From the IMG/VR virus record IMGVR_UViG_3300043313_000192, positions 1 through 20,084 of that record: a stretch of DNA of 20,084 nucleotides; one strand, given 5' to 3'. Below, piece by piece: positions 7,890 to 13,379 of this stretch (positions are counted from its first letter, which is position 1; each line of letters begins with the position of its first letter). The translations under genes were made by a program, and so were the position numbers. The notes under the pieces are model-generated. The model was given only the letters and a program-made list of their open reading frames with translations, was not told the origin of the DNA and ran no database searches. The DNA comes from a virus.

Positions 7890-9397
7890 AGATGAGGCCG
7901 ACCGATGGCGAACGGTTCATCAGCGTTGGCTTCCATTCGCATTCTAATATGGCGACCGCTAAACCTGACATCCATCAATCCGTCATGGACCTCTGAGTAC
8001 AGGCCAGTGTCGTGCTCAGTGCCTTGTGGTTGCTCTCTGGTTAGGAAACGGTACGAAACGCCGCTAGGTGCTGCCGCATCCAATATCACCTGCCTAACGT
8101 GATATCTGTTGTCACCAGGACCCAGCACGATGTTGCCAGACTCGGCATAGACCGAACCGACCGATGCGCGCGGCGCGCTGTCCTCAAGCCAGCCGTATTC
8201 ATGGAGGTATAAGCACGCCCCGCTCGCCGCCGGACCACCGAGGATCGGGTTGTCCATCGTTCCGGTGCCGTCAGCCGCCGTGCGTTCCCTTACCCCGATC
8301 GTCCAGGGCCGGCTTGCGTCGGCATAGTTGACCGCGATGTAGCGGTTGCACTCGTTGGCACCCTCATCCGGCCAATCCCACCAGAGTTCTGAGAATGCCG
8401 GGTTGGGACTGCCAAATACGCGGCCCACCATCTGCCGGTTCACGAGGCTGAAAAACCAATCATCGACGTCGCACTTCAAAGGCTGCACGGCGCCGGAATA
8501 GGCCCAGAACGTCTGCAGGCCGGGCCACGCGACATTGCTGCCGATCCGCACCACAGCGCGCGGCGAGATCGGCCCGCACCCCGAGGCGATCTCGACAATG
8601 CCGTAGGCGTACGGCGGTCCCACGTAGGTCATCTTGTGCAGGTCGTTGCCGGTGAACAGCAGGATGCTGTCGGCGATCTTGATCGCGGTCATGGCGTAGG
8701 ACTGCGTTTGCAGTTGCTTGTCGCCCGCCATGTTGACCGCGGTTGGCGTCCAGACCGTGTAGTCCTCCTGGTCGCTCCAGGCGATGGCGCGCGGGTCGCC
8801 GCCGGCCCCGTAGAGCACCACGTGCCGCTGGTCGGTGACGATCACGCCCCGGTTCATCAGCGGCGCCGCTGTGACGATGGCGGGCAGTGTCGTGGGGGTG
8901 TTGGGGTCCCACTCGAACAGGTGGCCGTCCTGGGTTGGCACGATCAGCAGACGCTCGCCGAACGTATCCATGCTCCACCGGTCGCCCATCGTCGCGCTGA
9001 TGTCCTGCGGACCGATGTCGTCTGAATCGCGCGCGGTGCCGTAGGCGTCCTCGCCGTAATCGCCGAGACCATAGCCGTTCAGCGCGCCGGGCGGATCGAG
9101 CGGCCCGACACCCGCCGGGGTGATGTCGTGCAGCGTGTCGGTGTCGAACCTGTAGGCGTAAAGCCCGGTGTCAGTGCCGAACGCGGCCCAGCGTATCCGG
9201 GCGTTGTCGTGCCATGTCAGCAGATCCCGCACTGGAGCGGACACGTTGGTGCCGGGGATTGCCACGTTGCCGCCGATCGGTTGGATCTGCCCGCCGCGGA
9301 ACCGGATATTGTTCGTGTCCCACCATCTTCCGATGGTTGCCTCTGGCGTCGCGTTACGCACCACGCCTGGCGGCGGGGCTTGGGTGAGACGCGGCAT
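7862..9397 (-). CDS. Probable tail nozzle / DNA-stabilisation protein (511 aa)
   Basis: A 511-aa protein with many short aromatic-rich beta-strand motifs (GLYAYRFDTDTLHDI, GHLFEWDPN, RHVVLYGAGGDPRAIAWSD, SILLFTGNDLHKMTYVG), giving the repeated-blade look of beta-propeller nozzle proteins (P22 gp10 or T7 gp12 type). These sit below the adaptor ring and close the short tail around the packaged DNA. The N-terminus (MPRLTQAPPPGVVRNATPE...NIRFRGGQIQPIGG) resembles other podoviral nozzle proteins. ATG at 9397 follows the upstream TGA after one base. The TGA at its 3' end lies inside the opposing endonuclease gene. The family call rests on pattern and position, not on a search. Confidence 0.62.
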   Translation of the reverse strand: MPRLTQAPPPGVVRNATPEATIGRWWDTNNIRFRGGQIQPIGGNVAIPGTNVSAPVRDLLTWHDNARIRWAAFGTDTGLYAYRFDTDTLHDITPAGVGPLDPPGALNGYGLGDYGEDAYGTARDSDDIGPQDISATMGDRWSMDTFGERLLIVPTQDGHLFEWDPNTPTTLPAIVTAAPLMNRGVIVTDQRHVVLYGAGGDPRAIAWSDQEDYTVWTPTAVNMAGDKQLQTQSYAMTAIKIADSILLFTGNDLHKMTYVGPPYAYGIVEIASGCGPISPRAVVRIGSNVAWPGLQTFWAYSGAVQPLKCDVDDWFFSLVNRQMVGRVFGSPNPAFSELWWDWPDEGANECNRYIAVNYADASRPWTIGVRERTAADGTGTMDNPILGGPAASGACLYLHEYGWLEDSAPRASVGSVYAESGNIVLGPGDNRYHVRQVILDAAAPSGVSYRFLTREQPQGTEHDTGLYSEVHDGLMDVRFSGRHIRMRMEANADEPFAIGRPHLQIRKGGRR

Positions 9398-9398
9398 G

Positions 9399-10394
9399 TC
9401 AGTGCGTCCCGCGCATGGGTGCCGCCATCAGGCGACGCACCAGCGGCACCGCAGCGGTCGCTGCGGCCGGTGCTGCCTGTGCTCCGGCATAGATAATCTT
9501 CGACACCACCATGACCGGCTGCACCATGTCAAAGGGCGTATTGGAACCGCCGGACCACGCATAGTGACCATGCGAACCATCGGCGTAGATGGCGTGCGCG
9601 TGGTCGCCGACCGCATAGACGTTATGCGCGTGGTTGCCATCGCCGACAATGACGTGGGCGTGGGGGCCAGAGTTGTATGTCTGGATGTTGTGCGTATGCA
9701 CGCCCTGCGCGTCGGTGGGATACCAACTGCTGCCGAACACATCCGACAGCACGCCCAATCCACCAGCAGCCGCGCCCGTGCCGAGATTTGGCAGCCATGT
9801 ATTGTGCGCGTGCGCGCCGTCGCCGCTCGTATAGCCGGTATGAAAATGGTCGCCCCCATTGGCCGTGCTGCCAGCATGCGAGTGAGTGCCCTGTGCATCG
9901 GTGGTATGGGCATGCGAGCCAGCCCCGACCGTAGCGCCGCCATGACTGTGGGCCGCGACGGTGTCGGTGTAGATCGTATAGTTTGGCACGTTGGCTTGCA
10001 GCAGCGTGTAGGACACCCTGCCGACGCGTTGGGCGAAGCTATAGGTCCGCACTGTGCCGTTCGCATCAGTGACGCTGCCAGCGCCGATCGCAGCGCGACC
10101 GTTGGCCGGCGGCAGGTTAAACGTGGTGGAACCGTCCCCGGCACCCCACGCAGTGCCGATGGCGGCGAAGAGCTGTGAGTATGTTGTCCTGGACACGGAT
10201 CGCCCGTCGCACGCGAGCCAGCCGGGCGGCGGGTTTGGCCCTGCGAAATCAGCAACAACGCCAACCGGCATCGCCATAGAGACGAACTCGTCCAACACAC
10301 TGAAATTGCTGGACAATTTAGCGCCCCACGAGTCGCGCGAGGCCCCGACCTCTGGCAAGACCAATTGCAGGTTGTCGGTATAGGTATCAGGCAT
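9399..10394 (-). CDS. Tail-collar fibre with ten HxH metal-binding pairs (331 aa)
   Basis: An N-terminal anchor (LQLVLPEVGASRDSWGAKLSSN...LDEF, residues 9-37) is followed by a phage tail-collar domain at about 43-110, with PVGVVADFAGPNPPPGWLAC and DGSTTFNLPPANGRAAIG. Residues 149-277 carry ten His-x-His pairs (149/151, 161/163, 171/173, 183/185, 195/197, 233/235, 245/247, 255/257, 265/267, 275/277). The C-terminus ends with the collar-type PFDMVQPVMVVSKIIYAG plus an Ala-rich tail. In T4 long and short tail fibres, HxH pairs from three chains bind iron along a needle tip; the same is likely here, making this a receptor-contacting trimer. Its ATG lies two bases after the TAA of the split small gene. 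Confidence 0.82.
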   Translation of the reverse strand: MPDTYTDNLQLVLPEVGASRDSWGAKLSSNFSVLDEFVSMAMPVGVVADFAGPNPPPGWLACDGRSVSRTTYSQLFAAIGTAWGAGDGSTTFNLPPANGRAAIGAGSVTDANGTVRTYSFAQRVGRVSYTLLQANVPNYTIYTDTVAAHSHGGATVGAGSHAHTTDAQGTHSHAGSTANGGDHFHTGYTSGDGAHAHNTWLPNLGTGAAAGGLGVLSDVFGSSWYPTDAQGVHTHNIQTYNSGPHAHVIVGDGNHAHNVYAVGDHAHAIYADGSHGHYAWSGGSNTPFDMVQPVMVVSKIIYAGAQAAPAAATAAVPLVRRLMAAPMRGTH

Positions 10395-10396
10395 AA

Positions 10397-10681
10397 TTAG
10401 GTGTCCGCTGTGTCATCGTTGGTTTTGACGTAGTTGCCGTCTTTCGCGACAGGCAGGCGGAATCGAAAGCCATTGGGGCCGAGGCCGGTCCAGCCATACC
10501 GGGTGCCGACGCGGCGCCGCCAGTCGCGGTGATCGCCGTAGCCTGGCGCTGGTGCGGCGCGCGGCAGCACTTGGATGCCGCCGAGCTTATTATCGGCGAC
10601 GTAGACCGTGCCGCCGTCGCACGCGCGCCAGTCCGGGTTACCCGAAGAACTAGCTCTGATCGTCCCAGCAAGTACTGTGAT
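10397..10681 (-). CDS. Main part of a split small tail protein, start codon ATC (94 codons)
   Basis: A 94-codon frame encodes ITVLAGTIRASSSGNPDWRA..., with aromatic/Gly-rich text (GWTGLGPNGFRFRLPVAKDG) and ends TAA two bases before the collar-fibre gene. It has no ATG, GTG or TTG between the in-frame TAG upstream and codon 38. Its first 17 codons match a second copy at 11313-11363 that does start with ATG. A perfect AGGAGG (10687-10692) lies five bases before ATC, so either translation starts at ATC, or a former ATG has mutated, or the gene is dead. I infer a short fibre-associated virion protein; the family is unknown to me. This frame is clearly coding, unlike the overlapping TTG frame ending at 10387. 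Confidence 0.65.
   Translation of the reverse strand: MTVLAGTIRASSSGNPDWRACDGGTVYVADNKLGGIQVLPRAAPAPGYGDHRDWRRRVGTRYGWTGLGPNGFRFRLPVAKDGNYVKTNDDTADT
10631..10681 (-). repeat. Recoded copy of the first 17 codons of the split gene
   Basis: The pair of 11313-11363. The protein text is the same at 15 of 17 residues (differences M1I and T13S), while 13 of 17 codons differ, 11 of them synonymously (for example CGC/AGA, TCG/AGT, GTT/GTA). The two copies are in the same orientation on either side of the endonuclease gene, 682 nt apart. Confidence 0.85.
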
Positions 10682-10686
10682 TTTCG

Positions 10687-10692
10687 CCTCCT
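10687..10692 (-). promoter_or_regulatory. Perfect AGGAGG ribosome binding site before an ATC codon
   Basis: AGGAGG with a five-base spacer (CGAAA) before ATC at 10681-10679. It sits directly beside the plus-strand promoter box of the HNH gene, so the element appears to carry its own initiation region for the downstream structural gene. Placement argues that translation is meant to restart here. Confidence 0.6.
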
Positions 10693-10747
10693 GTGCTACA
10701 AGCGAAGCGACGCGGTGTTGGAAGCACCGGCGTCGCCTCTAACCACA
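10693..10747 (+). promoter_or_regulatory. Conserved leader (promoter box, hairpin, CCACA box) of endonuclease gene 2
   Basis: TGCTACAAG at 10694-10702 is an extended -10-like box. A strong hairpin follows: GCGACGC-GGTG (10707-10717) pairs with CACC-G-GCGTCGC (10725-10736) around a TTGGAAG loop, with one bulged G. CCACA is at 10743-10747, exactly 20 nt before the ATG. Total length of 55 nt equals that of the homologous block at 7323-7377. GGAGGA at 10757-10762 is the ribosome site of the HNH gene. Confidence 0.65.
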
Positions 10748-10767
10748 CGACCCACCGGAGGATCGTC

Positions 10768-11301
10768 ATGGCTGTCAAGAAACTGCCCGAAGTCGGGTTC
10801 ATTCGCGAGTGCGTGGATTACAACCCGGACACCGGTATTTTCACGTGGCGTGCAAGGCCTAGCCATCACTTTCCGGACGGCTATCAAACAAGAATCAATA
10901 CGCGTCAGGCAGGCAAGCCTGCCGGGTCGCTTCTGAAAGGCTGCTATTGGCAGATCAAGCTTGGACGTTCCGTATATAAGGCCCACCGCTTGGCGTGGCT
11001 CTTGATGTATGGCGAACCAGTGCCGGATACGATTGACCACATTGACGGCAACGGACTGAACAACCGGATTGATAATCTCCGAGCGGCAACGAAGGCAGAG
11101 AGCAGTCAGAACAGAGGAAATGCCACAGGAATGATAGGCATAACCTACCACACTGATTCCCCCATAAGGCCATTTGAGGTTCGTGTTGCTGCGTTTGGCA
11201 AAAGACACCGGATTGGATGTTTTGCCACCATTAACGAAGCCAAAGCAGCACGCCGTGAGGCTGCCGAGCGACTGCATGGGCAGTTTGCCCGCCACGACTA
11301 G
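10768..11301 (+). CDS. HNH homing endonuclease with AP2-like C-terminal domain (177 aa)
   Basis: A canonical HNH core: HRLAWLLMYGE (residues 73-83) followed by DHIDGNGLNNRIDNLR (90-105), which supplies D90-H91, the central Asn residues and N103-L-R. The N-terminal 60 residues (VGFIRECVDYNPDTGIFTW) are the usual front of this family, and residues about 118-170 form an AP2-like DNA-binding segment (GMIGITYHTD...FEVRVAAFGKRHRIGCFATINEAKAARR). Start at 10768 follows GGAGGA with a five-base spacer; a longer frame to 10693 would run through the leader hairpin. Length is usual for free-standing phage HNH enzymes. It interrupts a small structural gene in the opposite orientation, and its TAG overlaps the TAG of the displaced fragment. 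It probably cuts the uninterrupted allele of that gene. Confidence 0.9.
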   Translation: MAVKKLPEVGFIRECVDYNPDTGIFTWRARPSHHFPDGYQTRINTRQAGKPAGSLLKGCYWQIKLGRSVYKAHRLAWLLMYGEPVPDTIDHIDGNGLNNRIDNLRAATKAESSQNRGNATGMIGITYHTDSPIRPFEVRVAAFGKRHRIGCFATINEAKAARREAAERLHGQFARHD

Positions 11302-11363
11302 ATGCGCCCCATATCCGGGTTGCCGGTGGACGATGCGCGGATGGTGCCTGCGAGAACTGTCAT
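11298..11363 (-). pseudogene. Displaced 5' fragment of the split small tail protein gene (21 codons)
   Basis: ATG at 11363 with AAGGGGG upstream, directly after the tailspike gene, opens MTVLAGTIRASSTGNPD and then diverges to MGRI and TAG. The first 17 residues are those of the gene continuing at 10681, so this is the original, ATG-containing start cut off by the HNH insertion after codon 17. A 21-aa peptide could still be made, since the ribosome site is good. A 6-codon frame at 11380 (ATGA overlap with the tailspike stop) leads into the same ATG, so the translational coupling survives. Confidence 0.75.
11313..11363 (-). repeat. Original copy of the first 17 codons of the split gene
   Basis: The upstream pair of 10631-10681. 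It uses GC-rich codons like the neighbouring structural genes (GGC, ACC, CGC, TCG), whereas the other copy uses GGG, AGA, AGT and TCT. That suggests the copy at 10631-10681 is the foreign one. Confidence 0.85.
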
Positions 11364-11376
11364 TGTGCGTCCCCCT

Positions 11377-13122
11377 TCATGTCAGTAACCCGCCCCACCA
11401 CTCGCCGGCCTTGTAGCAATACAGCTGCGCCGTCTTGCCCGGCGGCAGGGGGATGCCGGTGGCGGATGCAATGCCGTTGATGGTGTGCGGCGAGGTGCCG
11501 TAGATCTGCACCAGCAGCGCACTGGCGTTGGTCACCACCTGCCAGTAGCCGGCGACGGCCGGCGGCAACTTCACGCCGTTCCCGGTATTGCCGTTGACCG
11601 CCACCCAGGCGATCTGCGGGATGATCTGCACCGCTGCCGCTTGCCCGCCAGGCAGCGCAGTGATGCCGCCGGTAGTCGCGATGAGGTATGGCGTGTCCCA
11701 GACCGTGTGCGGCTTGCTGGTATCCCCCGGCATCAGGTGAATGAAGTCATTTGTCGAGCCGCTCGGCTCGATCACCCGGATGGGGTTGTTATCAACCGGA
11801 CTCAATACCTGAAACGGACTACCGACGTTCGTGATGTTATGCGCCGTGATGGTCACCGGGCCGGTCGCGCTGTAGTTCAAGGTCGAATACGAATTGCCGG
11901 ACACCGCGAACCTGCCGGTGAATAGCCCGGTGATCCTGATGGTGTTGGCCGAGTTGCCGATGAAGCAGCCGCCGGACATGGCGTCGATCTCTACGATGGA
12001 CCCGCCATACCAGTTGTTGCCGATGACCACCGCGCCGATGCCGGTCAGCTTGAAGCTGGCCGGGGTGACGGGGCCGAACTCGCAGCCGATGACCTTCAGG
12101 CCGTTCGACTTAGAACCTGGGTCCAGCCAGAACGTCTCGCCAGAGGAAAGCGGCTGGAACGTGCAGCCCTGGAACAGGATGCTTTGAGCAAGGGTGCAAC
12201 TCGGATCGATGTAGCAGAATGCGGTTTTGGCGCCGCCGGAATAGCAGCCGATGAACTTGAACGGCCCCTGATAGGCGACCTTGATGAACTGCACGCTGTA
12301 GAAGTATCGACCGTTGGCGTTGAACTGGCACCGCAGGAATGTGACGGTGTTGGTGCCGCCAGCCGTGGCGTTGTTGTCGCCATCGATGGTGACGATCGCC
12401 GTGCTGTCCTCTAAGGTTCCCGAACCGTTGACGCCGAAGCGCATGTCGTAACACGTCGTCTCGGGCGCGTTCACCAGATACAGGTAATGCTCGTAGCACT
12501 GCCATATCATGCAGTGATCGAATGACCCTGTGATGAATACATACTGCCCGCTGATCGGCGTTGCTTGCGGTGCGCCGCACCTGATGCCAATACCGTGGTT
12601 CCAGCTGAACACCCGCGAGTAGTATTGGTTGCCGCCGATGCACTGCAGCCCGACCGTGCCAGCGGCAGGCGTTCCGTTGCGGGTGACCTGAACATTGGTC
12701 AAGCCGCCATTCGGGTTGCTGGCAGACCACACCAGAACCACGGGCGACAGGTAAGATGGGCCGATGATGGCGCAGGTGGGCAGCCATGTAGCGCCGTCGT
12801 TTGGCACCGGTCTGACTAGTGTGCCGGGCGGCATTTCCAGGCGCCTGCCCTGCTGCACCAGAATCGTCTGCGTGGTGTAGATCGAGCCGGGAATGTAGAG
12901 CGTCGCGCCGATAGGGATCGCGGCCAGTGCGGCGTTGAGCTGCGCGCCCTGGTCAGTCACGCCATCGCAGATGATGCCGAAATCCGTGGCGCTGAGGCGC
13001 TCGCTCACGCGCGAGTCGAGCTTGTCGGCGTTGGCGTTCAGGTGATCGCCCCAGAGGTCGTCGTCCGCGTCGATCGTCGGCTTGTAGAGGCCGAGCCTCG
13101 GGGTCAGCGCATACTCGCTCAT
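11377..13122 (-). CDS. Tailspike with pectate-lyase-like beta-helix (581 aa)
   Basis: Start chosen at 13122 (MSEYALTPRLGLYKP), an ATGA overlap with the upstream gene; the longer frame to 13254 would overlap that gene in another frame. Residues 5-38 are a fibre anchor (TPRLGLYKPTIDADDDLWGDHLNANADKLD) similar to that of the collar fibre. From about residue 46 (TDFGIICDGVTDQGAQLNAAL...GATLYIPG) a pectate-lyase-superfamily beta-helix begins, with Asn/Gly/Thr-rich rungs to about residue 450. A C-terminal beta domain ends in AQLYCYKAGEWWGGLLT. Such spikes bind or cleave capsule or O-antigen; I cannot point to catalytic acids. It is very likely a trimeric receptor-binding protein. Confidence 0.78.
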   Translation of the reverse strand: MSEYALTPRLGLYKPTIDADDDLWGDHLNANADKLDSRVSERLSATDFGIICDGVTDQGAQLNAALAAIPIGATLYIPGSIYTTQTILVQQGRRLEMPPGTLVRPVPNDGATWLPTCAIIGPSYLSPVVLVWSASNPNGGLTNVQVTRNGTPAAGTVGLQCIGGNQYYSRVFSWNHGIGIRCGAPQATPISGQYVFITGSFDHCMIWQCYEHYLYLVNAPETTCYDMRFGVNGSGTLEDSTAIVTIDGDNNATAGGTNTVTFLRCQFNANGRYFYSVQFIKVAYQGPFKFIGCYSGGAKTAFCYIDPSCTLAQSILFQGCTFQPLSSGETFWLDPGSKSNGLKVIGCEFGPVTPASFKLTGIGAVVIGNNWYGGSIVEIDAMSGGCFIGNSANTIRITGLFTGRFAVSGNSYSTLNYSATGPVTITAHNITNVGSPFQVLSPVDNNPIRVIEPSGSTNDFIHLMPGDTSKPHTVWDTPYLIATTGGITALPGGQAAAVQIIPQIAWVAVNGNTGNGVKLPPAVAGYWQVVTNASALLVQIYGTSPHTINGIASATGIPLPPGKTAQLYCYKAGEWWGGLLT

Positions 13123-13379
13123 GCCGGTTCCAGTTCTGGCAGGCGGGTGACGGTCCATGCCCCCGTCCCGCAGCCGTCCACAGGCGCCCAGGCGCCCGCC
13201 GCGCAGTCCTGCTGCAGCCATGCCCCGGCGTTGCAGCCAGCCGCCTGGCGCCACGCCAGGGACAGCACAGCGTGGGCATCGAACGACACGACGCAGACGC
13301 CGGCCACCTCGATGATGGTCAGGCCGGGGCCGTAGGGGCCATTGCCGTAGGGGCCGCGACCATAAGGGCGGGATGCCAT
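13119..13379 (-). CDS. Small protein with PYG and CxxGAW repeats (86 aa)
   Basis: Start chosen at 13379 (MASRPYGRGPYGNGPYGPG), where TGATG couples it to the fibre gene; a start at 13403 would lie within that gene. The N-terminus has three PYG units, the middle is a beta-like stretch (LTIIEVAGVCVVSFDA), and the C-terminus has three CxxGAW units (CNAGAW, CAAGAW, CGTGAW). It lies between the two pectate-lyase-like fibres with overlaps on both sides, so it is probably a virion protein attached to them. I know similar PYG-start short proteins beside fibres in proteobacterial phages but no assigned function. The six or so cysteines could form disulfides or a metal site. Confidence 0.6.
   Translation of the reverse strand: MASRPYGRGPYGNGPYGPGLTIIEVAGVCVVSFDAHAVLSLAWRQAAGCNAGAWLQQDCAAGAWAPVDGCGTGAWTVTRLPELEPA

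Follow-up and report, generated by a model that had tools for sequence, protein, structure and literature searches.

A homing-type nuclease cassette in a small phage gene that probably brings its own substitute gene start

In the parts of the published accounts drawn on here, mobile open reading frames (ORFs) that carry a substitute for part of the gene they enter are described from fungal mitochondria, where those in atp6 of Allomyces macrogynus and in atp6, atp9, cox2 and nad3 of Glomus replace the end of the gene and leave the native end behind as a relic, the Glomus atp6 copies sharing 63.5% identity in DNA and 91% in protein (PMC3630166). N-terminal duplications that adjoin introns have been reported in Tremella (PMC7315562). 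In phages, HNH families have been described in lactococcal phages (PMC12724721), and homing endonuclease genes have been located at gene-exchange boundaries (Barth, Dunham and Seed, 2023; PMC10448857). No phage study describing a substitute gene start was found in the open-access literature text.

The window analyzed here, a stretch of 20,084 nt of viral DNA (IMG/VR record IMGVR_UViG_3300043313_000192), comes from a phage that encodes an SU10-type capsid protein, and it carries an HNH gene in a small gene whose start is present twice. As in Glomus and Allomyces, a nuclease ORF is accompanied by a diverged substitute, and the displaced native relic is the copy closer to relatives; the fungal elements, however, act at the gene end, whereas the window and a second case at rusA involve the gene start, with its own Shine-Dalgarno sequence, in phages, and the nucleases of the window's family are HNH or endonuclease VII rather than the LAGLIDADG or GIY-YIG enzymes of the fungal mobile ORFs (PMC3630166). 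The window shares with Tremella a duplicated, diverged N-terminal segment beside an inserted element, but the Tremella cases, as published, are introns or intron-like insertions in mitochondria, and the window lacks an intron signature (PMC7315562). Among phage systems it resembles mobE, the seg genes and I-HmuI-like HNH genes, in which a nuclease lies in or beside a phage gene, with leader hairpins in several (PMC2988022, PMC12724721). According to the account cited, mobE/mobA split the host gene into two polypeptides, whereas the window gene would be restored whole from a substitute start (PMC2988022); a split of that type was considered for the window and rejected, as the downstream ORF is the whole gene and the stub duplicates its start. 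Like the exchange-boundary nucleases, the window insertion lies where a variable spike module meets conserved genes, and its two sides have different relatives, though the account of those nucleases, so far as it is drawn on here, describes no substitute gene start (PMC10448857). The hidden ShiLan HNH in a phage methylase likewise shows that insertion into a coding gene can be tolerated without splicing domains, but it is read through in frame, and the text cited describes no duplicated gene part (PMC11855218).

The small gene (10681..10397, minus strand), of 94 codons counted from an AUC start, is flanked on the same strand by a spike-like gene (13254..11377) and a tail-collar gene (10394..9399). 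It has no relative in annotated phage records, in a genome contig scan, in PHROG or in PDB, and a DNA search against annotated phages yielded at best a single 66-nt match. The first-pass annotation had reported an HNH gene in antisense within it, which is borne out by a 177-aa ORF (10768..11301, plus strand) that matches HNH_3 (PF13392, E=5e-16) and phrog_99 (E=3e-58), retains the invariant residues H73, R74, D90, H91, N98 and N103 in alignment A2, and is preceded by a Shine-Dalgarno GGAGG at 10757..10761 (plus strand). An antisense ORF spanning the HNH gene was rejected by reasoning as a real gene and put down to GC-rich codon use. Among the viral contigs searched, the HNH type of the window occurred a single time. 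In three relatives (L176, L177, L178) a second antisense HNH gene, 49% identical to that of the window, separates the major capsid gene from the gene downstream of it, which keeps a normal ATG.

On the far side of the HNH gene the small gene begins a first time. Copy 1 comprises codons 1-17 from the original ATG (11363..11313, minus strand; ATGACAGTT..GAT, MTVLAGTIRASSTGNPD), followed by MGRI and a stop that ends at 11298, so that sequence and comparison with an HNH-free relative mark 11298..11363 as the stub of the recipient gene. Copy 2 (10681..10631, minus strand; ATCACAGTA..GAC, ITVLAGTIRASSSGNPD), rich in rare codons, is the substitute start and continues as the 94-codon ORF to 10397. The two copies are offset by exactly 682 nt, and over their 17 codons four are identical, 11 differ silently and two change the residue (M1I, T13S), which reproduces the paired start with 15/17 residues kept that the first-pass annotation had described. 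The peptide match scores 76, against a 99th percentile of 55 and a maximum of 68 in 300 mismatched flank pairs from other HNH loci; the score exceeds the control maximum, and 32 relatives conserve the segment, each in single copy, so that the duplication is not a chance resemblance. The frame of copy 2 holds no ATG, GTG or TTG, and an ATC with AGGAGG 5 nt upstream is its sole plausible start, a feature that had earlier been overlooked.

The order of events is indicated by an HNH-free relative of the kind that the first-pass annotation had proposed to align with both copies. Contig L003 (5762 bases, without an HNH match) is 99.7% identical to the window over the 1419 nt upstream of the gene start, begins the small gene with ATG, and over codons 2-17 differs from copy 1 by 2 nt and from copy 2 by 15. 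As L003 lacks the HNH gene and has the same flank, the arrangement in the window is an insertion and copy 1 a stub left from the gene that it interrupted. An old tandem duplication of the gene start, into which an HNH gene was later inserted, would also give two copies in direct orientation, but it is made extremely improbable by the single start in 32/32 relatives and by the match of copy 1 to the empty allele; neither HNH-free relatives with both copies nor tandem full genes, either of which the first-pass annotation had named as evidence against its reading, were encountered.

Identity to L003 falls to about 87% on the downstream side of the small gene, against 99.7% on the left, and the window is therefore recombinant at the cassette. 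This raises an alternative in which an L003-like phage was fused illegitimately, at codon 17, to a diverged relative with an HNH gene, beginning at the start codon of the latter; the repeated segment would then consist of the starts of two parents, the silent differences would be allelic divergence, and the element would have carried nothing but flanking DNA. The unequal flanks agree with such a joint, as does the left junction, where the stub ends in ..GGAT and is followed by ATGGGGCGCATCTAG, resembling the ATGGGAATCCTA found at the left edge of other insertions. Written in full the junction reads GGAT-ATGGGGCGCAT-CTAG, its ATGGG..CTA part being like the ATGGGAATCCTA on the left side of the insertions in L009 and L016, and it may well be an illegitimate joint. 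Most other insertions have their left junction after about 3 codons of the gene, the 17-codon stub being specific to the window. At L015:1088 the left junction has a different edge and enters another start, MSDYTTMPNLGLM, absent from the other loci compared. The ribosome-binding region of the stub in L002 is ~8 nt shorter than that of L022, which has the same flank and no insertion, as if it were decaying.

What a bare joint leaves unexplained is the uniformity of the insertions themselves. The small gene is encoded in 33 viral contigs, one of them a fragment without the gene start; these relatives are contig fragments, and the searches favor close relatives by design. Twelve begin with ATC or ATT after AGGAGGCGAA(A/G), as the window does, and 20 with ATG after varied sequence. 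Counted as distinct alleles, after removal of duplicates and two distant members and ignoring kinship, all nine that bear the insertion start with ATC/ATT and all 14 without it start with ATG, "without" referring to the gene start, as the ATG alleles of L006, L008, L023 and L026 carry endonuclease VII-like genes just downstream. Occupied and empty alleles of one site are thus both represented, the latter by L003, with the same flank, and by the 14 distinct alleles. An HNH_3 gene, 54-56% identical to that of the window over most of its length, lies directly upstream in L002, L004, L005, L009, L015, L016 and L019, and L010 belongs to the ATC/ATT group with its upstream HNH region cut by the contig end. 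In three further contigs (L014:164-643, L017:4446-4925, L018:4446-4925) the position of the HNH gene is filled by an Endonuclease_7 gene, and L013, of the same group, is cut short with the same leader; two kinds of nuclease, HNH_3 and Endonuclease_7, hence occupy one site behind an identical leader end. In the endonuclease VII type the ATC is preceded, five and four codons upstream, by in-frame TAA TAG, so that a conventional start is lacking. From the constant leader end and the ATC/ATT start of the insertion-bearing alleles it follows that the cassette supplies a new ribosome-binding site and start, and a recombination joint alone accounts for neither feature.

The cassette-supplied Shine-Dalgarno sequence of the restored gene, AGGAGG (10687..10692, minus strand), belongs to the element AGGAGGCGAA(A/G)-AT(C/T) common to the window and 12 relatives, and a scan of viral contigs for AGGAGGCGAARATYAC placed this leader end at the small gene only, the remaining matches looking like chance. 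In the divergent leader, which separates the HNH gene from the restored gene, folding predicts a stem-loop at 10707..10736; an equivalent hairpin whose stem letters differ precedes the endonuclease VII gene in L014 and L017. The leader has no sigma-70 promoter match. An ATG in copy 1 and a non-ATG start in copy 2 superficially suggest an intron- or intein-like element removed at the RNA or protein level, but window positions 9000-12000 have no Rfam match at E<=1 and show no group I intron core, only about 86 nt separate the nuclease gene from copy 2, the Shine-Dalgarno sequence stands directly before the ATC, and the nuclease is antisense, so that splicing hardly comes into consideration. Comparison of window positions 10681-10880 with L009, L004 and L015 shows the HNH gene to be a mosaic, in which the leader and the first ~37 codons share 95-97% DNA identity with the other HNH type and the remainder diverges.

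The lack of a conventional start codon in copy 2 might instead mean that the insertion is a knock-out and that the 94-codon gene is not made. This is quite improbable, as the ORF is intact in the window and in 12 insertion-bearing relatives, with pN/pS of about 0.2, and is preceded by a strong Shine-Dalgarno sequence at good spacing. The ratio is 0.19 in insertion-bearing alleles versus 0.18 in the others, which shows purifying selection on the restored gene, and the small gene thus probably survives the insertion. Silent diversity is very low in codons 18-30 (window 10592-10630 and relatives), at 0.08 per codon compared with 0.39 for codons 2-17, and the TGCGACGGC.GCACGGTCTACGTC within them hardly varies. 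Immediately after the small gene, relatives carry endonuclease VII-like genes with 37-42% identity to the L017 gene, at L023:5285-5719, L026:1466-1900, L008:1297-1725, L006:5495-5857, L004:4815-5177 and L005:5290-5652, so that both ends of the small gene are nuclease-occupied in this phage group.

Whether the re-spelled codons of copy 2 traveled as cargo or as donor flank is a separate matter. Their codon choice falls in the lowest 0.3% of 16-codon stretches in the phage's own genes, and that of the start in L014, an endonuclease VII allele, in the lowest 0.02%, although the test is mild for some alleles because starts of the small gene are generally somewhat poor in preferred codons. Over codons 10-17, copy 2 averages 66% identity to the ATG alleles, which are 84-90% identical to one another except for L007. 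This HNH-free allele is 58% identical to the remaining ATG alleles over the same codons and already holds most of the re-spelled codons of copy 2, and it could have lost a nuclease by recombination. Copy 2 matches HNH-free L024 over codons 2-8 and L007 over codons 5-14, both with ATG starts; that all of its codons 2-14 occur in one or the other favors the recombination joint, as does the presence, among 91 pairs of ATG alleles, of five with at least 11 silent codon differences. The cassettes in L002, L004 and L005 carry copy-1-like, native-like codons behind the same leader, and across the insertions of the window family only the leader and the ATC/ATT start are constant. The right end of the divergent segment can be placed only approximately, since the DNA of codons 18-30 is conserved throughout the alleles. 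The first-pass annotation had proposed that the element carries a recoded replacement of the gene start; insertion with a substitute start and its own ribosome-binding site agrees with L003 and the leader, while L007, L024 and the three native-like cassettes tell against the 17 re-spelled codons as cargo. The segment would have come from a diverged allele by either route.

A substitute start can be seen more clearly at a second gene. A peptide-repeat scan around other HNH genes yielded at least one second case, in rusA (PF05866) of an unrelated viral group, which answers the suggestion that other phages be searched for HNH genes with a recoded gene start. Six insertions (L124, L127, L128, L129, L132, L133) leave an 83-nt (28-codon) stub, directly after which the HNH gene begins; its stop codon overlaps the ATG of the complete rusA gene that follows and that has its own AGGAG. 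The pieces are joined by ATGA overlaps in separate frames, a further point against splicing. Two other loci, L125 and L126, have the HNH gene without a stub, and among the 80 rusA matches listed, 73 have no match to the rusA-type HNH within the stretch examined. As in the window, the displaced segment matches relatives and the substitute is diverged. In five of six insertions the stub is 90-100% identical to HNH-free alleles (that of L128, which belongs to a more distant gene, only 70%), and the substitute is 73-76% identical to these alleles over codons 1-14 and 56-60% over codons 15-28, where the HNH-free alleles are mutually 91% and 89% identical, respectively. Identity returns abruptly from codon 29, to 82-87% and then mostly 84-94%, with one low bin in L185 and L244. 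Among themselves the insertions are 94% and 91% identical over codons 1-28 (seven insertions), which indicates that the element carries the substitute segment and that the insertions have it in common; the length of this segment, 28 codons, equals that of the stub. HNH-free L184, L186 and L202 have native codons up to ~18 and insertion-like sequence beyond, as expected after recombination inside the substitute segment.

The equal lengths of stub and substitute and the sharp boundary at rusA are difficult to reconcile with a joint that carries only flanking DNA, and we consider that account unlikely though not negligible. The first-pass annotation had named recombination with a diverged relative as its alternative; such recombination contributes to the window, as its unequal flanks show, but it leaves the constant leader and start and the rusA case unexplained. 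A wider scan of 78 HNH loci, partly overlapping the first set, revealed no further family well above control, and as rusA was the single further case in the flanking-repeat scan, this layout is rare for the HNH genes of the loci listed.

We therefore favor, with reasonable though not full confidence, a homing-type nuclease cassette inserted at the start of the small gene, of which the substitute start would be translated and the original start would remain upstream as a dead stub. The cassette would consist of the antisense HNH gene, a divergent hairpin leader, a strong Shine-Dalgarno sequence and a substitute start with AUC or AUU, from which translation is predicted. The junction in the window would have formed in an L003-like recipient, leaving the 17-codon stub, and a diverged allele would have donated the substitute segment, as cargo or as donor flank. 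The cassette presumably moves by double-strand-break repair, and its changed start may shield it from its own nuclease. A nuclease target wholly within native codons 1-17 would still be cut, because copy 1 retains them, and the target would thus need to bridge the junction or extend beyond the stub.

The two unrelated genes and two nuclease families may, at about even chances, define a class of phage nuclease cassettes that bring a re-spelled replacement start with its own ribosome-binding site, beginning with AUC/AUU in one family, and thereby keep the gene product, render the occupied allele uncuttable and prevent recombining back. This suggests that a strategy known from fungal mitochondria is also used in phages. 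The arrangement bears on how homing nucleases of phages can enter conserved protein genes that have neither intron nor intein, and a replacement start together with empty alleles at two sites offers a direct way to test one route of entry. Regular use of AUC/AUU behind a strong Shine-Dalgarno sequence would, if true, add a naturally occurring and unusual example of rare start codons, linked to nuclease occupancy.
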